Below are positions 1 to 15,980 of a stretch of 38,034 bases of DNA, piece after piece (the first letter of the stretch is position 1; every line of letters starts with the position of its first letter). Made by a program: the position numbers and the translations under genes. Origin of the DNA: Lachnospiraceae bacterium (GTDB lineage Bacteria; Bacillota; Clostridia; Lachnospirales; Lachnospiraceae); the NCBI GenBank assembly GCA_017474455.1, contig JAFVHP010000018.1:1-38034 (forward strand), read 5' to 3'. The notes under the pieces are model-generated. The model did not search any database, was not told the DNA's origin, and saw only the letters and a program-made list of their open reading frames with translations.

Positions 1-215
1 AAGGCAACTGTTACGACAACAGTATCATGGAAACATTCTTCGGAAGATTGAAAAACGAGATGTTCTATGGATACGAAAAAGAATATACAACATTTGAGAA
101 GTTCTCGGACGCAGTCCGTGAATATATATGCTATTACAACACTGAGAGTATCCAGGCTAAAACAAAATGTATGCCTCCTGTAAGGTACAGGGAAGCATCC
201 ATGTGTTTCACCTAA
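1..215 (+). CDS. IS3-family transposase (OrfB), C-terminal fragment cut by window edge
   Basis: This is the tail of the DDE integrase domain of an IS3-family transposase. The frame is open from base 3 and reads GNCYDNSIMETFFGRLKNE. That is the conserved block around the third catalytic acidic residue, with the Glu directly after the Met at base 27. The downstream part (YYNTESIQAK, PVRYRE) matches the usual end of these proteins, which finish with a short helix and a stop soon after the YN..R motif. The 5' part and the left end of the element lie outside the window. The stop at 213-215 leaves about 90 bases before the next gene's stop codon. The family call is secure; the exact IS name cannot be given. 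Confidence 0.9.
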   Translation, partial: GNCYDNSIMETFFGRLKNEMFYGYEKEYTTFEKFSDAVREYICYYNTESIQAKTKCMPPVRYREASMCFT

Positions 216-224
216 AGGCTCGAT

Positions 225-254
225 CAATATGTCCAGGATTCTGGGTACATATCA
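225..254 (+). mobile_element. Candidate right terminal end of the IS3-family element
   Basis: Ten bases after the transposase stop lies TGTCCAGGATTCTGGGTACA followed by TATCA. The position is right for the right inverted end of an IS3 element, and the sequence ends in CA as those elements do. The matching left end is outside the window, so neither the boundary nor a target duplication can be confirmed. Confidence 0.35.
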
Positions 255-305
255 TGGCCTCAGTCCTTTTTTATTATGATCAATTGAACAGTGCGGGGCG
301 TCCCG

Positions 306-1580
306 TTATCTTCCGACGAGGCCCATGACACCCTGGCCTCCGTTCTCCTCCTGCATCATCCAGAAGTAGTCGTCGCGGTTTTCGGCATTCCTTAAAACAG
401 GGATCTGGTTCTGTTTGTTGTAGCCTACGACCACGTTGCCGTCAATGGGAGCCCAGGCTCCCTTGATGCAGTAGCCGGTCCAGTTGACAAAGTGCATATC
501 CTGATCCAGGCTGGTCGCCTTCATCTCGCCGTCATAATAACCTTCCGTGAAGGTACCGATGACGTTGGTAACGATCCTGGTCGTCAGGTACTGATCATCC
601 AGGCTGATATGTTCCTGTCCCTGGCCGTCCGGCAGGTCGTTCTTCCATTCGCCGTTGTAGGTATGCAGATAGATGCCGTTGTTGGCTTTGGCATATTCGC
701 CCTTGCGGTTGAAGATCTGGTACCAGTGGCCTTTGCCGCTCCTCTTGCCGTTGACGAAGTCACCGTAATAATACTGGTTTCCGGCATATACAGCGATACC
801 CTTGCCGTTGGGGACGCCTTCGGCGTTCGTATCGCCGTAGTAGAAGCAGTCTGCGGAACCCGTAAGCAGCTGTGACAGGTAGCGGTATTTTTCCATCCTG
901 ACCAGGTAATCCACGGCATCCAGGTTATAGCTGGCCCAGTAGGAAGCCAGGTCCTTTAACAGCTGCTGGACGTCTTCCTGTGTCGAAGGGAAAGAATCGT
1001 CCTTATATGCGACCTTCTTTTCGGCTACTGGCGTTTTCTCGATGAACATGACCGAAGGACCGGAAAAAACGGAAGGGCGTTTTGTCGTATCAGTCAGGAC
1101 TGAAGAGGTGCTTGACTGGCTCTTCGGCGTGCTGCTCTGGCTGGCACTGGGCAGCTGACGTATCCGGCCGGAACCTGTCGCCGTGTCGGCGGACTGGATG
1201 ATGGTGTCACCGTCCGTATCTGCGGCAGGTGCGGTGTAGATCTCAGTCTCTTTGCCTGCGCCTGTATCTTCGGAAGCGCTGCTGCTTTCGGCAGTGACTG
1301 CTTCGGCAGCGGCAGCAGGTGTACCGGCTTCGCCGGACTCATCCGCTGTTTCAGACGCGGCTTCGGCGATATCGGCCGCATCACCGGCAGCATCTTCTGC
1401 GGCCTCTTCGATCGGCGTTACGGCCGAAGGAACGTCTGAGCTTTCAGACGGGTCAGCCTTCGAGGATGCGGAAGATGACTTTGACGCCGCGCATGCGCTG
1501 ACGGCCACGATGCAGATGACTGCGGCAAGGATAAGGGATATCCAGCCGATCAGACGGTTTCCGTTATCATTTTTCTTCAT
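306..1580 (-). CDS. MORN-repeat lipoprotein with long low-complexity linker
   Basis: A 424-residue exported protein of unknown role. The N-terminus has a basic start, a hydrophobic helix (about residues 10-30) and VSAC, a good lipobox, so it is probably a lipoprotein anchored on the outer face of the membrane. Residues about 32-175 are a Ser/Ala/Asp/Glu-rich linker with little predicted fold. The C-terminal part carries at least three MORN-type units (YYGDFVNGKRSGKGHWY, YNGEWKNDLPDGQGQ and a related unit with PNGKG), a repeat often found in wall- or membrane-associated proteins. The start is supported by AAGGAGGA about 10 bases upstream and by an extended -10 promoter further up. It ends about 50 bases from the IS end and is transcribed towards it. 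MORN identity is clear; any specific function would be a guess. Confidence 0.8.
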   Translation of the reverse strand: MKKNDNGNRLIGWISLILAAVICIVAVSACAASKSSSASSKADPSESSDVPSAVTPIEEAAEDAAGDAADIAEAASETADESGEAGTPAAAAEAVTAESSSASEDTGAGKETEIYTAPAADTDGDTIIQSADTATGSGRIRQLPSASQSSTPKSQSSTSSVLTDTTKRPSVFSGPSVMFIEKTPVAEKKVAYKDDSFPSTQEDVQQLLKDLASYWASYNLDAVDYLVRMEKYRYLSQLLTGSADCFYYGDTNAEGVPNGKGIAVYAGNQYYYGDFVNGKRSGKGHWYQIFNRKGEYAKANNGIYLHTYNGEWKNDLPDGQGQEHISLDDQYLTTRIVTNVIGTFTEGYYDGEMKATSLDQDMHFVNWTGYCIKGAWAPIDGNVVVGYNKQNQIPVLRNAENRDDYFWMMQEENGGQGVMGLVGR

Positions 1581-1630
1581 AATATTCTCCTCCTTATCTT
1601 AAGCATTTCTTATTGCTGATAAGTAAATTG

Positions 1631-1639
1631 AGTATAGCA
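1631..1639 (-). promoter_or_regulatory. Extended -10 promoter for the MORN lipoprotein gene
   Basis: On the minus strand the sequence reads TGC-TATACT, an extended -10 element about 50 bases upstream of the start codon. No convincing -35 hexamer lies at 17 bases, as is normal for extended -10 promoters. Confidence 0.5.
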
Positions 1640-1728
1640 TGATAAATTACATTTAAACAGCCGCAGACAGGCTGCGGAGGTTTCACTTCATAAATTTAAT
1701 AATTCGTTAATGGTTTTGCAGGTTCTTG

Positions 1729-1737
1729 TGATAGAAT
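1729..1737 (+). promoter_or_regulatory. Extended -10 promoter for trpS
   Basis: TG-A-TAGAAT is an extended -10 element about 80 bases upstream of the chosen trpS start. The leader it would produce is too short for a T-box, and no T-box bulge motif is seen. Confidence 0.45.
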
Positions 1738-1815
1738 AAAAACACTGTTCGATACTGTTGACTGTATTATGGATTTGCAGGACAGGCAGAGATGCCGGCC
1801 TGCGCAGGTGATGAC

Positions 1816-2832
1816 ATGGAAAACAACGAGACCAAGAAACCGGAACGCAAACAGGTCCTGTTATCAGGTATACAGCCCACCGGCGTATTTACCCTGGGCA
1901 ATTATATCGGTGCTGTCAGGAACTGGCAGAAGATGCAGGATGATTTTGACTGCGCGTACTTTATCGCCGATCTGCATTCCCTGACAGTGAGGCAGGAGCC
2001 TGCCGAGCTCCGCAAGCATTCAAAGGAAGCTTTTGCGCTGCTTCTGGCCTGCGGGATCGATCCGGAGAAGAGTATCGTGTTCATCCAGAGCCATGTGCCG
2101 GCGCATGCAGAGCTGGGCTGGATCCTTTCCTGTTATACACAGTTCGGCGAACTTTCCAGGATGACCCAGTTCAAGGACAAGTCACAGCAGCATCCGGAGA
2201 ACATCAACGCCGGTCTGTTCGACTATCCTGCCCTCATGGCAGCCGATATCCTGCTTTACCAGCCGGATTATGTGCCCGTCGGTGCGGACCAGAAGCAGCA
2301 CCTTGAGCTGACCAGGACGATCGTCAACCGCTTTAACGGTCTTTACGGGGATGTTTTCCGCATGCCGGAACCCTATATCGCCAAAGAAGGCGCGAAGATC
2401 ATGTCACTCCAGGATCCCGCGAAGAAGATGTCCAAATCGGACACCAATACCAACGCGTTCATCTCGATACTGGACGATCCGGCAGTGATCCGCAACAAGT
2501 TCAAACGTGCGGTCACCGACTCCGAAACGGAAGTTGTTTTCCGCGAAGGCAAAGACGGCATCAACAACCTGATGACTATATATTCCGTCGTTACCGGCAG
2601 GAGCTTTGACGATATCGAGAAGGAATTTGCGGGCAGGGGATATGGCGATTTCAAGGCTGCCGTCGGTGAAGCAGTTGCGGAAGAACTCTCCGGCGTCAGG
2701 ACAAGGTTCAATGACCTTATGAAAGATAATGCCTATCTGGAAGAGTGCTACAGGTCAGGTGCTGAAAGGGCGGCCAGGATCAGCCAGAGGACTCTGAATA
2801 AAGTCAAGAAAAAGATCGGCCTGATCGTATAA
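1816..2832 (+). CDS. trpS: Tryptophanyl-tRNA synthetase
   Basis: Cytoplasmic class I aminoacyl-tRNA synthetase that charges tRNA-Trp using ATP. The class signatures are present: GIQPTGVFTLGNYIGA near the N-terminus contains the HIGH-equivalent site, here TLGN at residues 26-29 rather than the common HLGN, and KMSKS is at 204-208. The length of 338 residues is typical for the family. I chose ATG 1816 because AGGTGAT lies just upstream, matching the anti-SD. An in-frame ATG at 1792 would add eight residues with a poorer ribosome site. It is a single-gene unit ending in a hairpin terminator. No T-box leader precedes it, unlike many Firmicute trpS genes. Confidence 0.97.
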   Translation: MENNETKKPERKQVLLSGIQPTGVFTLGNYIGAVRNWQKMQDDFDCAYFIADLHSLTVRQEPAELRKHSKEAFALLLACGIDPEKSIVFIQSHVPAHAELGWILSCYTQFGELSRMTQFKDKSQQHPENINAGLFDYPALMAADILLYQPDYVPVGADQKQHLELTRTIVNRFNGLYGDVFRMPEPYIAKEGAKIMSLQDPAKKMSKSDTNTNAFISILDDPAVIRNKFKRAVTDSETEVVFREGKDGINNLMTIYSVVTGRSFDDIEKEFAGRGYGDFKAAVGEAVAEELSGVRTRFNDLMKDNAYLEECYRSGAERAARISQRTLNKVKKKIGLIV

Positions 2833-2843
2833 GTATTAAATAT

Positions 2844-2877
2844 AAAAAGCCTGTTGACAAAGCAGGCTTTTTATTTA
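2844..2877 (+). terminator. Rho-independent terminator of trpS
   Basis: Inverted arms AAAAAGCCTG and CAGGCTTTTT enclose a 9-base loop, 11 bases after the trpS stop, followed by a T-rich stretch. The loop contains TTGACA, which doubles as the -35 box of the next promoter. Confidence 0.85.
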
Positions 2878-2881
2878 TAAT
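2854..2881 (+). promoter_or_regulatory. Consensus sigma-70/SigA promoter of the small-peptide unit
   Basis: TTGACA at 2854-2859 and TATAAT at 2876-2881 are both perfect consensus hexamers, separated by 16 bases. The -35 box sits in the loop of the trpS terminator. This is the strongest promoter match seen in the window. Confidence 0.75.
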
Positions 2882-2885
2882 AATA

Positions 2886-2901
2886 GTTAGTTGAAACTAA
2901 C
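2886..2901. promoter_or_regulatory. Perfect dyad at the expected transcription start (candidate operator)
   Basis: GTTAGTT-GA-AACTAAC is a perfect 7+7 inverted repeat beginning 4 bases after the -10 box, where a bound repressor would block RNA polymerase. AT-rich TTAG/CTAA dyads are typical of DtxR-family (iron/manganese) operators, but assignment to any regulator is inference. Confidence 0.5.
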
Positions 2902-2932
2902 CGACAGCGAAGTAAGTGATAGGAGGTGCGAT

Positions 2933-3034
2933 ATGAGCGATATACTAGCCTTTACTGCAGCGACCGCATTTGCTTTGGGACTTGCTGTGATCCTGACCGG
3001 AATCAGGAACAGGCTCCTTGGACTGTCCGGTTAG
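2933..3034 (+). CDS. 33-residue single-helix membrane peptide
   Basis: A short gene with AGGAGGTG placed 5 bases before its ATG. The product begins MSDILAFTAATAF, continues as a hydrophobic helix (about residues 4-23: Ala, Leu, Val, Ile, Phe, Gly) and ends in a basic tail with IRNR, so one membrane span with the C-terminus inside is likely. It has its own consensus promoter, a dyad at the start site and a terminator 48 bases after the stop, so it is a complete monocistronic unit. I do not recognise the family. Short membrane peptides of this size often modulate a larger transporter or sensor, but nothing here names a partner. An alternative is that the RNA itself is the product. The strong SD and clean helix favour translation. 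Confidence 0.6.
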   Translation: MSDILAFTAATAFALGLAVILTGIRNRLLGLSG

Positions 3035-3081
3035 CATCAGCTCATAAAATCCCATCCTGAATAAGACCGGCATACCGGCAT

Positions 3082-3132
3082 AAAAAACGCATACAGCTGT
3101 TCATGGAGGCATGAAACTGTATGCGCTTTTTA
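3082..3132 (+). terminator. Rho-independent terminator of the small-peptide unit
   Basis: The arms CGCATACAG and CTGTATGCG are perfect, preceded by an A-run and followed by CTTTTTAT. It separates the small unit from the ABC importer promoter. Confidence 0.8.
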
Positions 3133-3191
3133 TGTCTTTCTGTCCGCCTGCCCCTGTTTTATCCAGAAGATGAATTTCTTTCACTATTTCC

Positions 3192-3220
3192 TTGAAATAA
3201 TGAATAAAAATGCATATACT
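3192..3220 (+). promoter_or_regulatory. Promoter of the amino-acid ABC importer operon
   Basis: TTGAAA at 3192-3197 and TATACT at 3215-3220 are separated by exactly 17 bases. The start codon follows about 45 bases later, with GGAGGAG as ribosome site. Confidence 0.65.
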
Positions 3221-3265
3221 GTTCTTCGTACCGCGTAAGCGGAGATTTTAAGGAGGAGATCGATT

Positions 3266-4096
3266 ATGAAGAAGATTATAGCTATGATCCTTGCAGGCAC
3301 AATGGCACTTTCCATGATGGCCTGTGCGGCCCCTGCAGCGGCTCCTGCGGCAGAACCGGCAGCGGAAGCAGCTCCGGCGGCGGAAGAGACTGCTGAGGAG
3401 GCTCCGGAAGCATCCGGTTTCACAACAGTCGCGGACGGTGTCCTGACAATGGGAACTAATGCGTACTTTCCGCCTTATGAGTACTATGAAGGCGAAGAGA
3501 TCGTCGGTATCGATGCCGAGATCGCAGCAGCTGTTGCCGAAAAGCTCGGCCTGACACTGAAGATCGAAGATATGGAATTCGATTCCATCATCATCGCCGT
3601 CCAGACCGGTAAGGTCGATATGGGCCTTGCTGGGATGACTGTTACCGAAGAGAGAAAAGAGAACGTCAACTTCTCCGATACCTATGCGACCGGCGTCCAG
3701 GTCGTTATCGTGAAGGAAGATTCCGATATCGCTTCTGTCGATGACCTGGCAGACAAGATGATCGGCGTACAGCTTGGCACGACCGGCGACATCTACTGCA
3801 CCGGCGATTTCGGCGAGGATCATGTCGACAAGTACAACAAAGGCAACGACGCGGTCATGGCGCTCGTATCCGGCAAGGTCGATGCAGTCGTTATCGACAA
3901 CGAGCCTGCAAAGAGCTATGTTGCCGCCAACGAAGGCCTGAAGATCCTTGAGACCGAATACGTCACCGAGGAATATGCAGCCGCCATCAACAAGGATAAC
4001 ACCGCGCTCCTGGATGCCATCAACGGCGCCCTTGCGGAACTGAAGGCGGACGGCACGCTCGATGCCATCATCGGAAAGTACATCAGTGCCGAATGA
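3266..4096 (+). CDS. Polar amino-acid ABC transporter substrate-binding lipoprotein
   Basis: Extracellular binding protein of family 3 (SBP_bac_3 / PBPb fold) that delivers an amino acid to the permease encoded downstream. The N-terminus is a lipoprotein signal (MKKIIAMILAGTMALSMMAC) with Cys20 as lipid anchor, followed by an Ala/Pro/Glu linker to about residue 50. The ligand-binding core begins near GVLTMGTNAYFPPYEY, carries the family's GIDAEIAAAVAEKLG and GLAGMTVTEERKENVNFS blocks, and ends in LKADGTLDAIIGKYI. The 276-residue length is standard. It is first in a three-gene importer operon. The substrate (Gln, Cys, Arg or another polar amino acid) cannot be set from sequence alone. Confidence 0.93.
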   Translation: MKKIIAMILAGTMALSMMACAAPAAAPAAEPAAEAAPAAEETAEEAPEASGFTTVADGVLTMGTNAYFPPYEYYEGEEIVGIDAEIAAAVAEKLGLTLKIEDMEFDSIIIAVQTGKVDMGLAGMTVTEERKENVNFSDTYATGVQVVIVKEDSDIASVDDLADKMIGVQLGTTGDIYCTGDFGEDHVDKYNKGNDAVMALVSGKVDAVVIDNEPAKSYVAANEGLKILETEYVTEEYAAAINKDNTALLDAINGALAELKADGTLDAIIGKYISAE

Positions 4097-4144
4097 TCCG
4101 ATCCGGGTCAAAAGCTGATAAAGAAGAAATACAGCAGCGTCAAC

Positions 4145-4171
4145 AGCGGGACAGGTCATAACTGTCCCGCT
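4145..4171 (+). terminator. Hairpin between binding protein and permease genes (attenuator or mRNA stabiliser)
   Basis: The perfect 10-bp arms AGCGGGACAG and CTGTCCCGCT surround a 7-base loop, about 50 bases after the binding-protein stop and 24 before the permease start. Only TTTAG follows, so it is at best a weak terminator. It would lower permease and ATPase expression relative to the binding protein. Confidence 0.55.
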
Positions 4172-4194
4172 TTAGTCTTGAAGAAAGAGATCCC

Positions 4195-4914
4195 ATGCAG
4201 AGATTAATCGATAAGTTCGTGCTGGACTTCATAGAAAAAGAACGCTGGAAGTTCATTACCAACGGTCTGAAGGTCACGCTGATCGTTACGCTTCTGGCAC
4301 TTATCATCGGTACGCTGATCGGTATCGTGGTCGGCATCATCCGCTGTGCCCATGACCAGCAGAATCCCAGTGACCTCAGGGGCGTTAAAGGCTTTCTGTT
4401 AAAGGCCTTGAATGCAGTCTGTAAACTGTACGTTACGGTCATCCGCGGAACACCGGCGCTGGTACAGCTCCTGATCATGTATTACGTGATCCTGATCACG
4501 GCCAAGTCCAAGATACTGGTCGCTGTACTGACCTTCGGGATCAACTCCGGCGCCTATGTGGCGGAGATCTTCCGCGGCGGCATCATGAGCGTAGATCCCG
4601 GCCAGATGGAAGCCGGCAGGAGCCTTGGTCTTTCCTATGTGCAGACCATGATCAAGATCGTCCTGCCCCAGGCTTTCAAGGCGATACTTCCTTCGCTGGT
4701 CAATGAGTTTATTGCCCTCTTAAAGGAAACATCGATCTGCGGCTATATAGGCCTGAACGAACTGACAAGGGGCGGCGATATCATCCGCGGGACTACCTTT
4801 GACGCGCTGTTCCCGCTGTTCGCGGTCGCACTCATATACCTGATGCTGGTGCTTATCATAAGCTACCTTTCGGGACTTCTGGAAAGGAGGCTGCGCAAGA
4901 GTGATATCCGTTAA
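4195..4914 (+). CDS. Amino-acid ABC transporter permease (HisM/GlnP family)
   Basis: Inner-membrane channel subunit of the importer; it normally works as a homodimer with two copies of the ATPase. The 239-residue protein has about five membrane helices, starting with [20 protein letters not shown]. The conserved cytoplasmic EAA loop ([21 protein letters not shown]) contacts the ATPase. The preceding [14 protein letters not shown] block is typical of the polar amino-acid permease family. The ATG has GAAAGAG upstream. Its last 14 bases overlap the ATPase gene, which implies translational coupling. Confidence 0.95.
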
Positions 4915-5623
4915 GAATCTGCATAAATACTTCGGAGACAATGAAGTTCTCCGCGGTATCGATTATGAAATAGACAAGGGCGAGAAGATCGTCATAGTCG
5001 GCGCGTCCGGATCGGGAAAGTCCACATTCCTGCGGTGCCTGAACCTCCTGGAACAGCCTACGTCAGGCCAGATCTTTATCGACGGGGAGGAGATCACCGC
5101 GAGAGGTGCTGACGTCGACCGGATAAGACGCAAAATGGGCATGGTGTTCCAGCATTTCAACCTGTTCCAGAACCTGACGATCCTGGACAATATCACACTG
5201 GCGCCTACCATGCTTAAACTGCAGAGTAAGGACGAAGCGGTAAAGAATGCCATGGCTCTTCTGGAAAGGATCGGTCTCCCGGATAAGGCGAATGCCTATC
5301 CCTCCCAGCTTTCCGGCGGCCAGAAGCAGCGTATCGCGATCGTACGGTCGCTGGCCATGAATCCGGAAGTCATGCTGTTCGACGAACCTACCAGCGCCCT
5401 GGATCCTGAAATGGTCGGCGAAGTCCTCCAGGTCATGAAGGAACTGGCGGAAGACGGTATGACGATGGTGGTCGTGACCCATGAGATGGGGTTTGCGAGG
5501 GAAGTGGCCAGCAAGGTCGTCTTTATCGACGAAGGCGTTATCAAAGAAGAAAATACGCCGCAGGAGTTCTTCAGTGCTCCGAAGAATCCGAGACTGAGGG
5601 ATTTTCTGTCAAAGGTACTCTAA
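4901..5623 (+). CDS. Amino-acid ABC transporter ATP-binding protein (GlnQ type)
   Basis: ATPase that powers the importer encoded just upstream. It starts with GTG behind AAAGGAGG inside the permease gene. All nucleotide-binding motifs are present: Walker [10 protein letters not shown] (about residues 34-42), Q-loop in MVFQHFNLF, signature LSGGQKQR, Walker [14 protein letters not shown] and the H-loop in [10 protein letters not shown]. The [12 protein letters not shown] block and the 240-residue length are characteristic of the polar amino-acid (GlnQ/ArtP) branch. A terminator follows 40 bases after the stop. Confidence 0.96.
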
Positions 5624-5660
5624 AAAGCATATCAACAGATACTGATCTGCCGGAACAGTT

Positions 5661-5697
5661 AAAAAAATGCTGCACTCAAGCGTGCGGCATTTTTTGT
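5661..5697 (+). terminator. Rho-independent terminator of the ABC importer operon
   Basis: AAAAAAATGC and GCATTTTTT flank an inner GCAC/GTGC stem, followed by TGTTTATTT. The A- and T-rich flanks could let it act in both directions. Confidence 0.8.
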
Positions 5698-5721
5698 TTA
5701 TTTGTGCACGAGGTACCCGGA

Positions 5722-5741
5722 GGCCATATGTGGCCATATGT
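5722..5741. repeat. Tandem 10-bp duplication
   Basis: GGCCATATGT occurs twice in direct succession, just before the hairpin-repeat array. Each copy contains the palindrome CATATG. No function is evident. Confidence 0.6.
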
Positions 5742-5754
5742 TGAAATCAATTCG

Positions 5755-6014
5755 GGCTCCCCGGAAACTATGATTCAGACGTTGCAGGGAGCCACATAAT
5801 TTAGAATTTGGCTCCCTGGAAGCTATAATTCAGGCATTGCAGGGAGCCGCAAAACTCAAAACCTGGCTCCCTGGAAACCATGATTCAGGCATTGCAGGGA
5901 GCCATAAAAATTCAGAACCTGGCTCCCTGGAAACCATGATTCAGGCGTTGCAGGGAGCCGCAAAACTCAAAACCTGGCTCCCTGGAAACCATGATTCAGG
6001 CATTACAGGGAGCC
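5755..6014. repeat. Five-copy array of 39-bp hairpin-forming repeats
   Basis: The copies lie at 5755-5793, 5810-5848, 5865-5903, 5921-5959 and 5976-6014, all exactly 39 bp. Each begins GGCTCCCTG and ends CAGGGAGCC, so each can fold into a 9-bp stem; the first copy has one mismatch in the stem. The inner 21 bases are also conserved, with a few substitutions. The linkers are 16, 16, 17 and 16 bp, and linkers 2 and 4 are identical (GCAAAACTCAAAACCT), which points to duplication of a repeat-plus-linker unit of about 55 bp. The array sits between two convergent genes, outside any credible coding region. This is REP/BIME-like intergenic architecture rather than CRISPR. The stretch 5623-6145 holds nothing else but the two flanking terminators and a 10-bp tandem. 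Confidence 0.9.
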
Positions 6015-6059
6015 ATTACAGTCAATTTACCGGCTCACAGACTGATTCGCAAAATCATA

Positions 6060-6092
6060 AAAGGCTTCCGGGATCAGATCCCGAAAGCCTTT
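6060..6092. terminator. Strong hairpin terminator, probably for the NUDIX gene
   Basis: Arms AAAGGCTTCCGGGAT and ATCCCGAAAGCCTTT pair with one mismatch and a 3-base loop. The flanking T-rich sequence on both strands (TTCTTTGTCTTTT on plus, TTTATGATTTTG on minus) allows bidirectional use. It lies 53 bases beyond the stop of the minus-strand NUDIX gene. Confidence 0.75.
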
Positions 6093-6144
6093 CTTTGTCT
6101 TTTATTGTCAGGATGCCGGGTCCGGGTTTTACCGGATATGGTTT

Positions 6145-6690
6145 TTACATGGCATCCGGGTGTCTCGTGTCGTCCCTGATATGGGTGGAACGGTGGTCTT
6201 TTAAGAAAAACAGGAAATCGATCAGGTGCTTTTCATACGGTATGAAAGTACCGTCGTCGATCATGGCCATGACTCTGTCCCGGTCAGCCCATTCAGCGGC
6301 CATTACTTCTTCCTGCTGGAGCAGGAGACTCTCGGTATCGACATCCATGTTGACGACATAGATGTCGTCGAAGCCGTCGATAAAGGACACTGTCACGGCA
6401 GGTGCTTCTTCAGAAAAATCATGTGTGAGTCCGAGTTCCTCAAAAAGCTCTCTTTTTGCGGCGATCTGGCTGCTTTCACCCTGTGAGACGCTGCCGCCGA
6501 TCGTCAGGTCCCAGAGACCGGGCCAGCTGTTTTTGTCAAGCTGGCGGCGCTGGATGAGAAGCTCTCCCCGGCTGTTAAAGATACAGATGTGCAGGACCAG
6601 ACGGTAATATCCTTCCGGTACTTCAGTATACCGTTCCATGGTCCTTCCGGTCAGGGCTCTGAAATTATCATAAAGGTCAAATACTTCCAT
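6145..6690 (-). CDS. NUDIX hydrolase (isopentenyl-diphosphate isomerase-like branch)
   Basis: Cytoplasmic enzyme expected to cleave a nucleoside diphosphate linked to another moiety. A perfect Nudix box is present: Gly66, five residues, Glu72, seven residues, then REL-F-EELGL at 80-88. The upstream block LLIQRRQLDKNSWPGLWDL (about 45-63) and the 181-residue length match the Idi/YfcD-like branch that many Firmicutes annotate simply as NUDIX protein. The substrate is unknown. The ATG has AAGGAAG upstream and a TTGTAC/TATAAT promoter. It is a single-gene unit, divergent from the MATE gene. Confidence 0.92.
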   Translation of the reverse strand: MEVFDLYDNFRALTGRTMERYTEVPEGYYRLVLHICIFNSRGELLIQRRQLDKNSWPGLWDLTIGGSVSQGESSQIAAKRELFEELGLTHDFSEEAPAVTVSFIDGFDDIYVVNMDVDTESLLLQQEEVMAAEWADRDRVMAMIDDGTFIPYEKHLIDFLFFLKDHRSTHIRDDTRHPDAM

Positions 6691-6752
6691 GGGTACTTCC
6701 TTAAGCCTTGTAAATCCCGATGCGTTCAGACATCGTTTATCACAGCTAATAT

Positions 6753-6782
6753 ATTATACTCACCGGCACGGAAAAAGTACAA
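6753..6782 (-). promoter_or_regulatory. Promoter of the NUDIX hydrolase gene
   Basis: On the minus strand TTGTAC (6777-6782) and a perfect TATAAT (6753-6758) are separated by 18 bases, about 60 bases before the start codon. Confidence 0.55.
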
Positions 6783-6799
6783 TTGTCCGGAATTGCATC

Positions 6800-6828
6800 T
6801 TGCAATATGAGAATAGAGCCAATACAAT
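6800..6828 (+). promoter_or_regulatory. Promoter of the MATE exporter gene
   Basis: TTGCAA at 6800-6805 and TACAAT at 6823-6828 are separated by 17 bases, about 80 bases before the start codon. It is arranged back to back with the NUDIX promoter. Confidence 0.5.
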
Positions 6829-6907
6829 AGGCAAAGACTGTATTTAATAAGATATCTGAACTATTTGCGGTGATCAATATAACGAATTCTCAGATAGGAG
6901 AAAGATA

Positions 6908-8335
6908 ATGGCGGACAATAACAGACCGGCCGGTACACCCGGACAGACACAGGCTGCATACGGAGCGGATCAGGGACAGAACAAGCTCGGTTCATGGCCG
7001 ATAGGAAAGCTCCTGCTTTCCATGGCTATACCAATGATGCTTTCATTCTTTATCCAGGCTCTTTATAACTTTGTGGATTCGATGTTCGTGGCCAGGATCT
7101 CGGAGAATGCGCTGACGGCGGTATCTCTGGCTTATCCCGTCCAGAACGTAATGATGGCGATCGGTGTCGGTACCGGCGTCGGCATCAGTGCTTCCGTTCC
7201 CAGGGCGATCGGCAGGGGAGATATGGAGAGAGCGGACCGGATCGCCAATTCTGCGGTATTCATAAATATTATCTGGAGCGTGCTGTTCGCAGCCCTGGGC
7301 TTTATTGCCGCGCGCAGGTTCTATCTGCTGCAGACCGATATCCCGGATATCGTGGACGGAGGCACGACATATCTGCGGATCTGCTGGGGCGCCGGATTCG
7401 GACTATTCTTCAGTATGATGTTCGAGAGGCTGCTGGTCGCGACCGGGTATGCTACGCTGGCCATGATCGCACAGGCGGCAGGTGCGGTATTCAATATTAT
7501 TTTTGACCCGCTGCTGATCTTCGGCATAGGGCCTTTCCCCCGTATGGGCATCGCCGGCGCCGCGACCGCGACAGTGCTGGGACAGATCTTTGCGGCGCTC
7601 ATCGCGCTTTTGCTGAACCTGAAAAAGAATTCCAACCTCCGCTTCTCGCTGAGCGGTGTGCTGCATCCTGATCTTGGCTGCATCAAACAGATCTATTCGA
7701 TCGGTTTCCCGTCGATGATCACGATCGGCCTCTCTTCGCTGACCGGTTTCTGCATCAACATCGTCCTGCTCGGATACAGTACGACTGCTACCGCGGTATA
7801 CGGTATCTGGATGAAACTCATGAATTTCTGCTTCATGCCGGCATTCGGCCTGAACAACGCCCTGGTCCCGATCCTTTCGTTCAACTACGGAAAAAGGGAC
7901 AGGCAGCGTGTCAAGAGCGCCATCAGAATAGCTCTGACCATCGTCCTTGTCTTTATGCTCACGCTTACCGTCATCCTGGAGATTATTCCCGGACAGCTCC
8001 TTAAACTGTTCTCCGCGTCGGATTATATGATGTCTATCGGGCTTGTTGCGTTAAGGATCTGCTGCCTGTCGCTGGTCTTCGGTGCGGCGACTATCGTCAT
8101 GACGTCGTCCATGCAGTCCATGGACCACAGCCGGTATACGCTCATCGTTAACCTGATGAGACAGTTCGTTATCCTGGTGCCGGCTTTCTTCCTGCTAAGC
8201 TTCCTGACGCATGACCTGAACAAAGTCTGGTTCGCCGTGCCGCTTTCGGAGATCGTCAGCTGCTGTACGGCTATCTTCCTGTACAGGAAAATGGATAAGG
8301 ATATAGAAGCGGAATTCTCAAGATCGGGAAATTAA
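6908..8335 (+). CDS. MATE-family efflux transporter
   Basis: A 475-residue, roughly 12-helix membrane antiporter that exports organic compounds using a Na+ or H+ gradient. A hydrophilic N-terminal tail of about 30 residues precedes the first helix. Family blocks are clear: MAIPMMLSFFIQALYNFVDSM near residue 38, then AVSLAYPVQNVMMAIGVGTG and AGAVFNIIFDPLLIFGIG, with a second half beginning SIGFPSMITIGLSSLTGF. The gene has AGGAGA upstream and its own promoter. Its last four bases overlap the convergent cyclo-ligase gene. No local regulator or substrate clue is visible. Confidence 0.95.
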   Translation: MADNNRPAGTPGQTQAAYGADQGQNKLGSWPIGKLLLSMAIPMMLSFFIQALYNFVDSMFVARISENALTAVSLAYPVQNVMMAIGVGTGVGISASVPRAIGRGDMERADRIANSAVFINIIWSVLFAALGFIAARRFYLLQTDIPDIVDGGTTYLRICWGAGFGLFFSMMFERLLVATGYATLAMIAQAAGAVFNIIFDPLLIFGIGPFPRMGIAGAATATVLGQIFAALIALLLNLKKNSNLRFSLSGVLHPDLGCIKQIYSIGFPSMITIGLSSLTGFCINIVLLGYSTTATAVYGIWMKLMNFCFMPAFGLNNALVPILSFNYGKRDRQRVKSAIRIALTIVLVFMLTLTVILEIIPGQLLKLFSASDYMMSIGLVALRICCLSLVFGAATIVMTSSMQSMDHSRYTLIVNLMRQFVILVPAFFLLSFLTHDLNKVWFAVPLSEIVSCCTAIFLYRKMDKDIEAEFSRSGN

Positions 8336-8940
8336 AAGATACCGTTTTCGGTCGCGATAAGGTCCATGGGAATATCGAACGGACCGGCGGGAATGTCGTC
8401 CCGCATCAGTTTTTCAAAACATGTACAGAGAGTGACGGGCCTGTTATCCGGCCCGTCCTTTTTTGCGGAAAGAAAACGGTCGTAAAAACCGGCGCCGTGT
8501 CCCAGGCGGATCCTGTCCCCGGATACGCTGACACAGGGAACGACGGCCAGGTCAAGATCAGAGCAGGAAGCTGTGATACTGGTCTCCAGGAGAGCCGGCT
8601 CCGGTATGTTCATCATGCCGGGTGTGAGTTCATCCAAAGAGTATATACGGACAGCCAGCATAGTTTCCTTCGAAACGCATTTGGGGACGAAGACCGCTTT
8701 GAGGTCCCGCAGAGCAGTGTTAATGAGGCCGTATGTATCCGGTTCCCCTTCCATGCTGACATAGATAAAAACGGACCTTGCGGCCGCATACTCTTGACAC
8801 CGGAGGATATGCTGCGTGATGAGCTTTCCGGCCATATCGAAATAACCGCCTTCTGCGAGCAGGGCAGTCCTCGTTTCACGGATCTCTTTCCTGATCCGTG
8901 CCTTCAGTTCACGAGTATCGGAGCGGCTGTTGTCCGGCAT
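8332..8940 (-). CDS. 5-formyltetrahydrofolate cyclo-ligase (5,10-methenyl-THF synthetase)
   Basis: Cytoplasmic folate-salvage enzyme that converts 5-formyl-THF to 5,10-methenyl-THF using ATP. Family features are an N-terminal basic helix (ARIRKEIRETR), the central VFIYVSMEGEPDT block and the signature LGHGAGFYDRFL (146-157), which is the G-x-G-x-G-(F/Y)-Y-D nucleotide-binding loop. The length of 202 residues is normal. It starts 4 bases after the hslO stop, so the two genes form an operon. Its 3' end overlaps the convergent MATE gene by 4 bases. Confidence 0.94.
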   Translation of the reverse strand: MPDNSRSDTRELKARIRKEIRETRTALLAEGGYFDMAGKLITQHILRCQEYAAARSVFIYVSMEGEPDTYGLINTALRDLKAVFVPKCVSKETMLAVRIYSLDELTPGMMNIPEPALLETSITASCSDLDLAVVPCVSVSGDRIRLGHGAGFYDRFLSAKKDGPDNRPVTLCTCFEKLMRDDIPAGPFDIPMDLIATENGIF

Positions 8941-8944
8941 GGGT

Positions 8945-9847
8945 TCAGCCTCCGTTTTCAGACTTATGTCTGCTGATAAGATCGAGAAGGTCCTGTCTGG
9001 TGAAGTGATAGGCGCTTTTGCAGAACTGGCAGGTCAGTACCGTATCTTCCTGTTCCGCGGCCATGGAACGGATCTCATCTTCTCCGAGCAGGATGAGAGC
9101 GCGCTCGACCCTGTCCTTATCACAGTTGCAGAAGAACTGTACCGGCATGGAATCGTTGATCTGAGGATCCAGGCCGTCCAGCAGCAATCTGAGCATAGAT
9201 TCAGGGGTATGTCCCTCGGAAAGCATATCCGTGACATACTGCGAAGAGGCAATGTTTTTTTCCAGCCTGTCGATCACAGCTTCCGCTGCGAACGGCATGA
9301 GCTGGATGATATAGCCGCCGGCGGCCAGTACATTCATATCCGTGCCGACGAGCACGCCAAGGCCCACCGCCGAAGGGACCTGCTCCGATTCGGCAAAGTA
9401 TCTGGCTATATCCTCAGCGATCTCGCCGCTTTGCAGTTCCACCTGGCCGGTATAGGTGTTTTTCAGGTCAAGGTCGCGGATGACCGTCAGCACGCCTTTT
9501 CCCACAGCGCCGCCCACGTCCAGGTGTCCGTCCTCTTTTGGAGGCAGAAGGACCATCGGATTGATAACATAGCCCTTTACATGGCCGCTGTTGTCCGCCG
9601 TTACCGTAAGCCCGCCAAGCGGACCGTCCGAGGTGATCTGGATCGTGATGAGGTCCTTTTCGCCTTTCAGCATATCCGCCATCATCAGGGCGCCGCACAT
9701 CGTCCTGCCAAGAGCCGCTGTAGCGACCGGCGTCGTACCGTGCGCCTTCCTGGCAGTCTGGACCAGTTCCCTGCCAGTTACGGCAAAAGCCCTGACCTGT
9801 CCATCTGCCGCCGTCGCCCTTACCATATAATCAACTGTATTGCCCAT
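8945..9847 (-). CDS. hslO: Redox-regulated chaperone Hsp33
   Basis: Cytoplasmic holdase chaperone activated by oxidation. The zinc-binding redox switch is complete: Cys240-x-Cys242 and Cys273-x-x-Cys276, near the C-terminus in FCNC and LTCQFCKSAYHF. The N-terminal core has the usual TAALGRTMCGALMMADMLKG segment. I start it at ATG 9847 (MGNTVDYMVRATAADG, 300 residues) because AAGGAG lies 6 bases upstream and the family begins there. An upstream in-frame ATG at 9886 would add 13 residues with no ribosome site. It is first in the operon with the cyclo-ligase gene. Confidence 0.96.
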   Translation of the reverse strand: MGNTVDYMVRATAADGQVRAFAVTGRELVQTARKAHGTTPVATAALGRTMCGALMMADMLKGEKDLITIQITSDGPLGGLTVTADNSGHVKGYVINPMVLLPPKEDGHLDVGGAVGKGVLTVIRDLDLKNTYTGQVELQSGEIAEDIARYFAESEQVPSAVGLGVLVGTDMNVLAAGGYIIQLMPFAAEAVIDRLEKNIASSQYVTDMLSEGHTPESMLRLLLDGLDPQINDSMPVQFFCNCDKDRVERALILLGEDEIRSMAAEQEDTVLTCQFCKSAYHFTRQDLLDLISRHKSENGG

Positions 9848-9886
9848 AAGACTCCTTATCAACATCCGGTATTTTATACAACGCAT

Positions 9887-9895
9887 ATTCTATCA
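9887..9895 (-). promoter_or_regulatory. Extended -10 promoter for hslO
   Basis: On the minus strand TG-A-TAGAAT, about 40 bases before the hslO start, is the same extended -10 sequence as at trpS. The -35 region is weak. Confidence 0.45.
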
Positions 9896-10060
9896 TAATT
9901 GATCCGCGTACAACTGACACAGTTCTCCTTTCTGGTGTAAACTGGAACTGTTGCAAAGAAAGCGGCCCCGCCAACGCCGCCATGATGTTCGGCAGCGGTT
10001 GCGGCCGCAGGATGCTGCTCCGCAGATTAATATGACCAAAGACTCTGAAGGAGGCCGGTT

Positions 10061-10741
10061 ATAGGCAGTAAAGAACATGACGGGTTTGAGTACGAGGAAA
10101 TATGTGCGCAGATCCTGAAGAGGAGCGGATTTAAGAAGGTCACCGTGACCAATGCCACAGGGGACCAGGGGCTGGATGTCATTGCGGAAAAGCAGGGTCT
10201 CCGCTTTGGCATCCAGTGCAAATATTACAGTCATCCTGTGGGCAACAAAGCCGTGCAGGAGGCTTATGCCGGCTGCGGCTACTATGACTGCGACGTTCCT
10301 GTGGTGATGACCAACAGCACCTTTACGGCCAGTGCCAGGGAACTGGCAGAACAGCTGGGTGTGGAACTCTGGGAAGGGTACGAACCCTATGTGGAGAGCC
10401 GGCACCAGCCTTTCGTCCGGATCGCCGGAGAAGCCCTCATTCTCGCAGGCATTTTCTTTACGGTGACCGGCCTTGTTTCCGCTGGTTTGAACCCGGCAGA
10501 ACTAAGGAAAGCGGGAGCCGCACTGGGTATCCTGGCTGTCGCCGGTGTACTTGGCGTCTTTAACTTTCGGTTTCGGGCGCTGTACTTTTTATCCTGTATT
10601 CTTTCTCTCGCCTCCGGCGTGATCTTCCTGTCCGGCGGCTTCGGCGTGGTTGCCTTTTGCGCTTTCACCGCCGGCATTCTCGACGCCGCCGTCCTCATCG
10701 TGTCTGTCAGATCTTCTGTTGATAGATATAAAGAGGCATAG
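10061..10741 (+). CDS. Membrane-anchored Mrr-like nuclease domain protein, apparent ATA start
   Basis: About 226 residues. The N-terminal half is an Mrr-type PD-(D/E)xK endonuclease domain: FEYEEICAQILKRSGFKKV, then GDQGLDVIAEKQG with the acidic active-site residue, then GIQCKYYSHPVGN with the Q-x-K catalytic strand, and a conserved VVMTNSTFTASARELA block. The C-terminal half has about four hydrophobic helices, so the nuclease domain is probably tethered to the inner face of the membrane. No ATG, GTG or TTG exists upstream in frame until GTG 10145, which would remove the first helix of the domain. However, AAGGAGG lies at 10048-10054, six bases before ATA 10061, so I place the start there. 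A lost base joining ATG 10032 is the alternative. Domain identity is firm; role (DNA defence, DNA quality control) is unknown. Confidence 0.75.
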   Translation: MGSKEHDGFEYEEICAQILKRSGFKKVTVTNATGDQGLDVIAEKQGLRFGIQCKYYSHPVGNKAVQEAYAGCGYYDCDVPVVMTNSTFTASARELAEQLGVELWEGYEPYVESRHQPFVRIAGEALILAGIFFTVTGLVSAGLNPAELRKAGAALGILAVAGVLGVFNFRFRALYFLSCILSLASGVIFLSGGFGVVAFCAFTAGILDAAVLIVSVRSSVDRYKEA

Positions 10742-10901
10742 CCTGCCGGTTTGCAGATGAGATGCTATGCTCCCGGACAAAACAGCTGGATCTGTGCTGC
10801 TCTCATTGGTGAATGCTCCTTTTAAGGATAACAGTTATATTACTGATCAGGTTTTAGTTGAATTTATGCGGCAAAACCATATATCAAGTATCGGCAAGCT
10901 A

Positions 10902-10910
10902 TGGTAAAAT
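10902..10910 (+). promoter_or_regulatory. Extended -10 promoter for the aminotransferase operon
   Basis: TG-G-TAAAAT is an extended -10 element about 50 bases before the aminotransferase start. The 220 bases between the Mrr-like gene and this operon hold no gene. Confidence 0.5.
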
Positions 10911-10962
10911 AATCGGTACGGCAAAAATACAGCGTACAAATATGGATTGCAGAGGATAACAG

Positions 10963-12252
10963 ATGAAGTCATATCTTGAAATGTCAAAAGAAGAACTGAA
11001 CAGCGAAGCGGAAAAGCTCCGGAGCAGATATCACGATTTCCAGGCTATGGATCTGCAACTGAATATGTCCCGCGGCGTACCCTGCAGGGAACAGCTGGAT
11101 CTGTCCATGGGACTGATGGACGCATTGTCTTCCGACGCGGACCTGACCTGCGAGGACGGTACGGACTGCCGCAATTACGGTGTCCCGGACGGCATCCATG
11201 AAGCGAAAGTCCTGATCGGTGATATGATGGAGAACCATCCGGACAATATCATTATATACGGGAATTCTTCCCTGAACGTTATGTACGATACGGTGGCCCG
11301 CGCGATGACCCACGGGATCATGGGCAGCACGCCCTGGTGCAAACTGGACAGTGTCAAGTTCCTCTGCCCGGTACCCGGCTATGACAGGCATTTTGCCATT
11401 ACCGAATACTTCGGAATCGAAATGATACCGGTGCCGATGTCGGAAACAGGCCCGGATATGGATATGGTGGAAGAACTGGTCTCGTCCGACGATGCGATCA
11501 AAGGCATCTGGTGCGTGCCGAAGTACTCGAATCCGCAGGGATATTCCTATTCGGACCAGACAGTCAGGAGATTCGCGAGGCTCAAGCCCGCGGCGCATGA
11601 TTTCAGGATCTTCTGGGATAACGCATACGGGGTCCATCACCTTTACGACACGCATCAGGATCATCTGATCGAGATCCTGGCCGAATGCAAGAGGGCGGGC
11701 AATCCGGATCTGGTATACAAGTTTTCATCGACTTCCAAGATCACTTTCCCGGGCAGCGGGATCGCCGCGCTCGCCACTTCCGACAACAACCTTGTCGATA
11801 TCAGGAGGCAGCTGCGCAGACAGACGATCGGACATGACAAGGTCAACCAGCTCCGCCATGTCAGATTCTTTAAGGATATCCACGGATTGATGGAGCATAT
11901 GCGCCTGCACGCGGATATTCTCCGGCCGAAATTTGAAGCGGTCGAGGAGATCTTCGAAAGGGAACTTGGCGGGCTCGGTATCGGCACATGGACAAAGCCG
12001 AACGGCGGGTACTTTATCAGCTTTGATTCCATGGAAGGCTGCGCGAAGGAGATCGTCGCAAGGGCCAAGAAGGCGGGCGTCACACTCACCGGCGCCGGGG
12101 CGACGTGGCCTTACGGCAATGATCCCAAGGATTCCAATATCAGGATCGCGCCGACCTATCCGCCGCTGGAAGACCTGAAAAAGGCAGCGGAGCTTTTCAC
12201 TGTCTGTGTAAAACTCGTCAGTGCGCAAAAGCTCCTTGGTGAAATAAAGTAA
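10963..12252 (+). CDS. Atypical aspartate aminotransferase (Asp_aminotransf family, PLP fold type I)
   Basis: Cytoplasmic PLP enzyme expected to interconvert aspartate and oxaloacetate with 2-oxoglutarate/glutamate. The 429-residue protein belongs to the variant aspartate aminotransferase family, not the AspC type. It has MSRGVPCREQLDLS near the start, the NPQG substrate loop in KYSNPQGYSYSD, the PLP ring-binding DNAYGVHH, the Schiff-base Lys in SSTSKITFPGSG and the carboxylate-binding Arg in NIRIAPTYPP. AGAGG lies upstream of the ATG. The next gene starts 10 bases after its stop, so it heads the envelope/transport operon that follows. That pairing gives no obvious metabolic link. Confidence 0.9.
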   Translation: MKSYLEMSKEELNSEAEKLRSRYHDFQAMDLQLNMSRGVPCREQLDLSMGLMDALSSDADLTCEDGTDCRNYGVPDGIHEAKVLIGDMMENHPDNIIIYGNSSLNVMYDTVARAMTHGIMGSTPWCKLDSVKFLCPVPGYDRHFAITEYFGIEMIPVPMSETGPDMDMVEELVSSDDAIKGIWCVPKYSNPQGYSYSDQTVRRFARLKPAAHDFRIFWDNAYGVHHLYDTHQDHLIEILAECKRAGNPDLVYKFSSTSKITFPGSGIAALATSDNNLVDIRRQLRRQTIGHDKVNQLRHVRFFKDIHGLMEHMRLHADILRPKFEAVEEIFERELGGLGIGTWTKPNGGYFISFDSMEGCAKEIVARAKKAGVTLTGAGATWPYGNDPKDSNIRIAPTYPPLEDLKKAAELFTVCVKLVSAQKLLGEIK

Positions 12253-12262
12253 GGCATAACGG

Positions 12263-14116
12263 ATGAACAGCGAAAGATTCAGTTCGAACAAAAGCATGAT
12301 CATGTACTTCCTGGAAGGAAGCAAACGTTACTTTGCGGGAAGTGTTGTTTTCGCATGTCTTTCTTCGCTGTTCGACCTGATCAATCCCAGGATCATCGGG
12401 TTCACCGTGGACTCTGTCCTCGGCACGGAGCCGGTGGCTTTTACCGGTATCATCCTCAGGCTGATCAATGCGGCAGGCGGCGCGGACCGGTTAAGGACCA
12501 GGCTGTGGTTCATCGCCCTGGTCGTTGTCATTATCGCCGCTGTCGGCGCCGTTTTCAGATATCTGCACAGGCTGCTGAATTCCACAGCGGCAGAGACACT
12601 GGTCAGGAATACCAGGAACAGGCTGTTCGAGCATATCGAAAAACTGCCGTTCGCCTGGTATATGCAGCATCAGACGGGCGATATCATCCAGAGATGCACC
12701 TCCGACGTGGAAACGGTCAAACGGTTCCTGGCGGAGCAGCTTACAGGCATGATCAGGATCGTTATGATGCTGTCGCTTTCGCTTTTCTTTATGAGCCGGA
12801 TCAGCGTCCCGCTCACGATATGCGCGGCAGTGTTCATCCCCGTGATCATCATGTATTCCGTCTTTTTCCATTCGAAGATCAGCGCGATCTTCAGGCATGC
12901 CGATGAAGAAGAGGGGAAACTGTCTGCCATAGCCCAGGAGAACCTGACAGGTGTCCGCGTCATCCGGGCTTTCGGGCGTGAGAGATATGAGAAGAAGCGC
13001 TTTGCGGAACAGAACGATGTATATACCGGCGCTTTTATGAAACTGGCCCTGTTCATGTCGGGATTCTGGTCGCTGGGCGATATGTTCTCCGGTCTGCAGG
13101 TCCTTGCCGTCGTCGCTTTCGGCGCGGTGCTCACCGTCAGGGGGAGCATGACCACCGGCAACTATATCGCGTTTATTTCCTATAATTCCATGCTGGTGTG
13201 GCCGGTCAGGTCCCTCGGCAGGGTCATTTCCGAAATGAGCAAGGCCGGCGTTTCCGTATCCCGTCTTAAGGAGATCATGAACGCGGAACCTGAATACGAC
13301 GATCCGGACGCTACATGCCCGTCTCTTTCCCAGGATATTGAATTCTCGCACGTAACTTACGGATATACCGAGGAAGTGCCGGAGATGTTAAAGGATGTCT
13401 CCTTCACGATCCATGCCGGGGAGACTTTCGGCATCCTGGGCGGCACAGGTTCCGGAAAATCGACGCTGATGTATCTTCTGGACCGCCTGTATGAATTGCC
13501 GGAAGGCAGCGGAAAGATCACGATCGGCGGGACGGATATCCGGAAGATCAAACGGAGCCATCTGCGCGGCGGTATCGGAATGGTGCTGCAGGAACCTTAT
13601 CTCTTTTCCAGGACTCTTTCCGAAAATATCGCGATCACACAGAAAGAAGTCTCAATGGATAAAGTCCGCCGGGCCGCCAGGATAGCGGATCTGGATGATA
13701 CGGTGAACGATTTTACCGCCGGATATGATACGTATGTAGGCGAGAGGGGCGTTACCCTTTCAGGCGGCCAGAAGCAGCGGGCTGCGATCGCGCAGACGAT
13801 ACTGAGGGATACGCCGATCATGATCTTTGACGATTCCCTCTCGGCTGTAGACGCCGAGACGGATGCCAGGATCAGGGCAAGGCTCCGTGAGAATACGGAT
13901 AACACCACGGTCATCCTGATCTCCCACAGGATAACGACACTGATGCACGCGGACCAGATTATGGTGCTTTCGGGCGGCCGCGTGGAAGAGATCGGGGATC
14001 ATGAGACCCTGTACAATAACGGCGGTACGTACAGGAGGCTGTGCGATATCCAGACCGCAGGTCTGGATATGAAGACTGCAGGTCTGGAATTCCAAACCGC
14101 AGGCGCTGAAGGATAA
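12263..14116 (+). CDS. Heterodimeric ABC exporter, subunit 1 (degenerate Walker B)
   Basis: A 617-residue type IV ABC exporter half with a six-helix membrane domain (about 1-330) fused to an ATPase domain. Motifs are Walker A GGTGSGKST, Q-loop VLQEPYLFS, a canonical signature LSGGQKQR, and H-loop ISHRITTL. The Walker B reads IMIFDDSLSAVD: the residue after the first Asp, normally the catalytic Glu, is Asp524. This is the pattern of the non-hydrolysing partner in heterodimeric exporters such as TM287/288 or BmrCD. The C-terminus carries three copies of a TAG(L/A) heptad-like tail (QTAGLDM, KTAGLEF, QTAGAEG) after the family's normal end. The second half is encoded 15 bases downstream. The substrate is unknown. 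Confidence 0.93.
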   Translation: MNSERFSSNKSMIMYFLEGSKRYFAGSVVFACLSSLFDLINPRIIGFTVDSVLGTEPVAFTGIILRLINAAGGADRLRTRLWFIALVVVIIAAVGAVFRYLHRLLNSTAAETLVRNTRNRLFEHIEKLPFAWYMQHQTGDIIQRCTSDVETVKRFLAEQLTGMIRIVMMLSLSLFFMSRISVPLTICAAVFIPVIIMYSVFFHSKISAIFRHADEEEGKLSAIAQENLTGVRVIRAFGRERYEKKRFAEQNDVYTGAFMKLALFMSGFWSLGDMFSGLQVLAVVAFGAVLTVRGSMTTGNYIAFISYNSMLVWPVRSLGRVISEMSKAGVSVSRLKEIMNAEPEYDDPDATCPSLSQDIEFSHVTYGYTEEVPEMLKDVSFTIHAGETFGILGGTGSGKSTLMYLLDRLYELPEGSGKITIGGTDIRKIKRSHLRGGIGMVLQEPYLFSRTLSENIAITQKEVSMDKVRRAARIADLDDTVNDFTAGYDTYVGERGVTLSGGQKQRAAIAQTILRDTPIMIFDDSLSAVDAETDARIRARLRENTDNTTVILISHRITTLMHADQIMVLSGGRVEEIGDHETLYNNGGTYRRLCDIQTAGLDMKTAGLEFQTAGAEG

Positions 14117-14131
14117 GTCAGTAAAGGATCT

Positions 14132-15966: not shown

Positions 15967-15980
15967 GGGGCGCAGACTGG

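Follow-up and report, generated by a model that had tools for sequence, protein, structure and literature searches.

A compact transcription unit between trpS and an ABC transporter operon

The window analysed here, a stretch of 38,034 nucleotides, is contig 49 of a 2.62-Mb draft assembly that is 96.6% complete. A 430-base gap between trpS and an amino-acid ABC transporter operon holds a micro-gene unit, whose DNA is present as a single copy in the assembly. The features of the unit and of its surroundings are listed in Table 1. An earlier sequence-only reading had described a perfect promoter with its -35 box in the loop of the trpS terminator, a dyad at the expected start point, a ribosome-binding site, a gene for a single-helix peptide and a separate terminator. 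That observation is confirmed: the promoter was read directly and scored 12/12 in a scan, its -35 box occupies the tip of the trpS terminator hairpin, the dyad was recovered both by eye and by scan, AGGAGGTG precedes a 33-codon frame with one predicted transmembrane helix, and a hairpin of its own follows that frame. The stem of the trpS terminator (2842-2855 paired with 2861-2874) has a folding energy of -17.9 kcal/mol (z -6.3), and the 77-nt stretch 3064-3140, which includes the micro-gene terminator, has one of -32.5 kcal/mol (z -7.1).

Table 1. Features of the micro-gene unit and its flanks (positions in the window)
Feature	Position	Strand	Basis or remark
trpS (tryptophanyl-tRNA synthetase), upstream neighbour	1792-2832	+	Pfam PF00579 (class I W/Y), E 3e-72
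trpS intrinsic terminator	2842-2874	+	Fold; apical part carries the -35 box of the micro-gene unit
Promoter TTGACA-16-TATAAT	2854-2881	+	12/12 consensus match; -35 TTGACA 2854-2859, 16-nt spacer, -10 TATAAT 2876-2881
Operator-like dyad GTTAG-N6-CTAAC	2886-2901	.	Over expected start point, 4 nt past -10 box
5' leader stretch, predicted partner of 3023-3042	2889-2907	+	RNA pair probabilities
Shine-Dalgarno AGGAGGTG	2921-2928	+	Sequence
33-aa ORF	2933-3034	+	ATG 2933, stop TAG 3032-3034; one predicted transmembrane helix
3' partner of leader pairing (predicted), around stop codon	3023-3042	+	RNA pair probabilities
Intrinsic terminator of micro-gene unit	3079-3134	+	Fold
Separate promoter TTGAAA-17-TATACT, before ABC transporter gene	3192-3220	+	Promoter scan

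The downstream operon begins at 3266 (Pfam SBP_bac_3, BPD_transp_1 and ABC_tran). Leader attenuation of the transporter was considered and ruled out because the transporter has its own promoter; a TATAAT-like hexamer likewise lies at most 160 nt from the ABC transporter gene in 19 of 24 relatives.

The promoter and the dyad at its start point

The 12/12 promoter score is unique within positions 1-19000 of the window. In the whole assembly there are 12 perfect TTGACA/TATAAT promoters with a spacer of 16-18, and a reversed-pattern control gives 0. Another of these serves a tRNA-Ser gene, and further ones precede genes read from the downstream sequence, with no family search, as those of ribosomal proteins L32 and S12; at least one (L063) looked like a match inside a gene. 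Given the count relative to the control and the genes served, most perfect promoters of this organism are genuine, and they are probably strong. At one further perfect promoter (L066, G000:C41:217939 onward), some 200 nt of purine-rich sequence with no obvious ORF follow, a possible small RNA or leader.

The dyad, GTTAGTT-GA-AACTAAC, has perfect 7-bp arms. By itself it is only modestly unusual, since a dyad with 7-bp arms (gap 0-6) turns up within 30 nt in 0.8% of simulated sequences; over the window the same kind of dyad has 40 entries, some of them nested. Its value comes instead from the comparison with feoA promoters given below. With its full 7-bp arms the dyad looks unique, and a search that allowed up to three mismatches in them returned 16 sites against 26 for the control and indicated no regulon, the arms having been drawn too long. 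GTTAG-N6-CTAAC is the best way to describe the dyad, and in this form its sole exact copy in the assembly is the window site. By a hand computation, the chance of an exact dyad falling within 15 nt after a perfect promoter is about 12 x 15 / 2.6 million = 7e-5.

Allowing one mismatch adds four sites. These lie in the organism's own feoA promoter, across the start codon of feoB (perhaps incidentally), behind a gene read as lysS, and, as ATTAGCGAAGGCTAAC (L288, G000:C30:127798-127813), upstream of a 2[4Fe-4S] ferredoxin gene, 29 nt from its start codon. With the exact copy included, this makes 5 sites genome-wide against 10 for the reversed control, and with no numerical excess only the placement of the sites is therefore meaningful. 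The ferredoxin site is a possible additional member of the regulon.

Copies of the dyad type upstream of feoA in the genus

The assembly has two FeoB loci. At one of them the region preceding the first feoA contains GTTAGTTGATGTAAAC, which overlies a TAAACT -10 box, and, 29 bases further on, GTTAGAACATGCTAAT. A FeoA search matched 58 of 62 genus genomes. From the resulting table, 39 relatives were hand-picked, mainly for the first genes of tandem feoA pairs, and together with the organism's own genome they gave 40 upstream sequences (18 kb); close relatives contributed some of them, which means that not every site counts as an independent one. The first point to note is that TTAG-N6-CTAA occurs 22 times in this set, in 21 of the 40 regions, against 0 to 7 occurrences for any other spacer length between 0 and 20 (7 at spacer 10, 4 at spacer 20 and 3 at spacer 5). 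Composition shuffles of the set gave a mean of 0.37 and a maximum of 3, and a control of 64 loci from the genus and its order (235 kb) held a single copy. When one arm was relaxed, the element was present in 33 of the 40 feoA regions compared with 3.2% of random control slices.

The placement of these sites is also shared. A -10-like hexamer (at least 5/6) lies 0-14 nt upstream of 14 of the 22, against 8.6% of positions, and the window dyad, with its gap of 4 nt to the -10 box, has the same arrangement. Within the feoA sites the six inner bases vary, the arms being fixed by the search, and the left flanking base is always a purine, G or A, in the 21 sites of relatives. Metal-uptake promoters in this organism and in relatives thus carry the element, although feoAB fusions do so more weakly: only 3 of their 20 upstream regions contain it. 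Its arms had earlier suggested DtxR-type control, and this hint now has strong comparative support; with a DtxR-family gene present in the assembly, metal control of this type is well supported as a prediction by the comparison.

A related element, GTTAG-N-TAAAC, occurs 10 times at spacer 6 in the feoA regions and at none of the other spacers from 0 to 20. In several of these regions, and likewise in the organism's own genome, it overlaps a -10 box of sequence TAAACT and precedes the downstream dyad by about 28-30 bp.

Sites of the full GTTAG-N6-CTAAC form were also seen elsewhere. In one relative (G074; L203, 300-475), TTGACA-17-TATCAT is followed by GTTAGCTATTACTAAC, a stretch of about 110 nt and a terminator, making up a candidate iron-regulated small RNA; a second GTTAG-N6-CTAAC comes after the terminator, before a gene read as a flavodoxin fragment. 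An uncultured Clostridia MAG (L116, 5441-5509) has two such sites about 1 kb from an ORF on the other strand read as flavodoxin-like, and from these the putative operator may be wider than the genus.

A DtxR-family regulator

The assembly has one PF02742 match, a 143-aa protein that also carries PF01325, the DtxR DNA-binding domain, and is thus the candidate cognate regulator. Among solved sequences the nearest is MntR, followed by ScaR, IdeR and others, and the best NCBIfam model is MntR with a score below cut-off, which makes manganese possible as the sensed metal. The protein retains an EDYLE motif, which we take to be MntR-like, and an ACxxEH motif, presumably like the iron site of DtxR. 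DtxR-family genes adjoin feo in two relatives. In one of them (G083; L206) the DtxR-family gene is divergent and lies upstream of feoA, with ATTAG-N6-CTAAT between the two. A literature search for a described operator in this clostridial group found none that we recognised, which is no proof of absence.

The peptide and the predicted transcript fold

The predicted peptide, MSDILAFTAATAFALGLAVILTGIRNRLLGLSG, has one hydrophobic helix (maximum 19-residue hydropathy 2.23) and a short basic tail. The combination of a Shine-Dalgarno sequence, an ATG and an ORF of at least 25 codons with a hydrophobic helix was met in 0 of 60000 simulated 193-nt stretches; under a laxer hydropathy limit, six others were present in 346 kb of loci. 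The codon usage of the ORF scores below 99.5% of in-frame 33-codon slices from the genes of the window and above 80% of out-of-frame slices.

The searches made leave the peptide an orphan. Protein searches returned 9 weak non-self matches among 61 genomes (37 of the genus, including its own, and 24 of the order; E 0.12 to 0.64) and 7 among 397 genomes of the family (E 0.08 to 0.27), mostly inside longer frames and none of them convincing. Phage and plasmid searches gave no match, Pfam no family at E 0.1 and NCBIfam none at E 0.5; the best PHROGs hit (E 0.017) is a family of unknown function. When the DNA of the unit was compared with the 62 genus genomes, 25 of which lie outside the 61-genome protein search and were covered in this way only, 55 had some match at E 1 or better. 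Beyond the unit itself, the other 61 genomes yielded only short patches; in the best of them (E 0.0018) the match falls on that end of the query which holds the trpS terminator.

Synteny, with loci oriented by strand, gave the same picture. Neither TTAG-N6-CTAA nor a 33-aa ORF was present in the 450 nt behind trpS in 28 relatives, or in the 450 nt before the ABC transporter gene in 24 (one more contig in each set ends too soon), and 80 further trpS loci held one weak small hydrophobic ORF, unlike the window peptide. The synteny result leaves the odds of the readings discussed below unchanged. The earlier reading had proposed a search of related genomes for both dyad and peptide: the dyad type was found, at feoA promoters, whereas protein, DNA and synteny searches found no homologue of the peptide and no conservation of the locus. 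For an orphan peptide with such atypical codon usage, translation and function are putative, and the ORF could be a recently born gene or one whose main product is not a protein.

Two loci of relatives (L026, 1937-2068, in G033, and L031 on the minus strand in G067) encode an identical 43-aa hydrophobic ORF that starts 100 nt behind trpS. It is preceded by AGGAGGTG in L026 and has no evident likeness to the window peptide, and no TTAG-N6-CTAA is present there.

In the predicted fold of the transcript, the 5' leader pairs with the region around the stop codon (Table 1), most pair probabilities being near 1, and several Shine-Dalgarno bases are also paired. The energy of this duplex was reached by 0.1% of shuffles, for segments chosen post hoc. 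The fold has a z of -2.3; of 35 ORF starts picked by hand in the window, 2 score lower. The hairpin formed by the dyad is predicted to be weak (-3.3 kcal/mol) and to be outcompeted by the long-range pairing in the full transcript. We regard the leader-to-stop pairing as a lead and not as a finding.

Proposed model and alternatives

With moderate confidence, we place the unit in the metal-starvation (feo) regulon, as a monocistronic and strongly inducible micro-gene that the DtxR-family protein would repress and that encodes a predicted membrane peptide. It is probably switched on when iron (or manganese) runs out, because its start point carries what appears to be the switch of the relatives' iron-uptake genes. 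When iron, or possibly manganese, is sufficient, a metal-loaded dimer of the regulator would occupy GTTAG-N6-CTAAC and, lying over the start point, would block initiation at the consensus-perfect promoter. On metal starvation the repressor would leave, and a transcript of about 245 nt would be made, ending at the hairpin of the unit. The strong Shine-Dalgarno sequence would direct its translation into the 33-residue single-helix membrane peptide, which most likely tunes a partner in the membrane, much as MntS does in manganese homeostasis; the partner could be a transporter of metals or else a membrane enzyme rich in iron. The regulatory interpretation of the sequence-only reading is supported to this extent. 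A more elaborate version, which we think unlikely, has the iron regulon of the genus working through one-dimer TTAG-N6-CTAA operators and a newborn membrane micro-gene recruited to it in this species. The AACUAAC arm would then act as an RNA switch, pairing with either the 5' GUUAGUU or the GGUUAG at the stop codon, and would add translational to transcriptional control.

The main rival, a somewhat unlikely one in our estimation, is that the product is mainly an iron-responsive, DtxR-repressed small RNA of about 245 nt, similar to the iron-sparing RNAs FsrA or RyhB or with a dual function as in RybA/MntS, in which the ORF is minor or incidental. A small self-contained unit with its own terminator and an operator of the iron type would suit such an RNA, as would the predicted leader-to-stop pairing, the poor codon usage and the protein searches, which found no conservation; the G074 locus described above, where no ORF started by a Shine-Dalgarno sequence was seen in the terminated stretch, points the same way. 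However, a strong, well-placed Shine-Dalgarno sequence before a hydrophobic-helix ORF did not arise in the simulations, the z of the fold is not extreme, and the window has no Rfam match at gathering score. That the dyad serves a regulator other than the DtxR-family protein seems to us quite improbable: TTAG-N6-CTAA has the DtxR/IdeR one-dimer spacing given in PMC8464063 and sits at feoA promoters, and in G083 the site is flanked by feoA on one side and a divergent DtxR-family gene on the other.

A type I toxin, in which a small membrane toxin is encoded by an mRNA that inhibits itself by 5'-3' pairing and is silenced by an antisense RNA, the dyad being a start-proximal RNA hairpin, would account for a 33-aa hydrophobic peptide and for a leader predicted to pair with the stop-codon region. 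We nevertheless judge it very improbable. The peptide has no match in Pfam or NCBIfam, and hence none to the toxin families therein, the best minus-strand promoter candidates between 2840 and 3300 reach only 8/12, the unit is single-copy at the DNA level, and the match to feoA promoters would be left unexplained. Chance alone, in which a promoter arose fortuitously behind a terminator and both dyad and ORF are random, is the least probable reading that we weighed. It fits the relatives, which have nothing alike at the same place, and the abundance of 7-bp-arm dyads in the window, but not the 12 perfect promoters against 0 in the control, nor the position of the sole exact GTTAG-N6-CTAAC less than 15 nt after one of them (chance about 7e-5).

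If the favoured model is right, an operator type in common with feoA promoters connects an orphan micro-gene with the iron regulon predicted here. The comparison also supplies a testable operator definition for this clostridial group, GTTAG-N6-CTAAC just past the -10 box, which is a route to more small proteins and RNAs of the metal-starvation response.

Comparison with known systems

The one-dimer site of IdeR/DtxR, TTAGGNNNNCCTAA (PMC8464063), and the window dyad have in common a palindromic TTAG-N6-CTAA core with identical spacing (2887-2900, TTAGTTGAAACTAA) and a location at a promoter. They differ beside the arms, where IdeR has G/C (TTAGG..CCTAA) and the window site T/A (TTAGT..ACTAA); the feoA sites of the genus are likewise variable there. 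The IdeR consensus comes from an actinobacterial protein, whereas the regulator of this genome is short, with two DtxR-family domains in its 143 aa.

With regard to the product, the FeoB-associated Cys-rich membrane protein (PF12669), encoded in feo loci, is also a small single-helix membrane protein; a relative has a match above the Pfam cut-off and this genome has two below it. The window peptide, in contrast, has no Pfam match and no cysteine, and lies at a separate locus. In Bacillus subtilis, the FsrA RNA and the small proteins FbpA, FbpB and FbpC form an iron-repressed, iron-sparing response (PMC7430163), but these are Fur-controlled, and the proteins are described there as basic rather than hydrophobic. 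The closest analogue, likened by description alone, is MntS/RybA of Escherichia coli, where a small ORF lies in an RNA of predicted complex structure that is repressed by metal-loaded MntR (PMC4361602). There, as proposed here, a small protein is encoded in a structured RNA under a metalloregulator, whereas the window operator is of a type in common with feo (iron) genes and the window peptide is a hydrophobic orphan.
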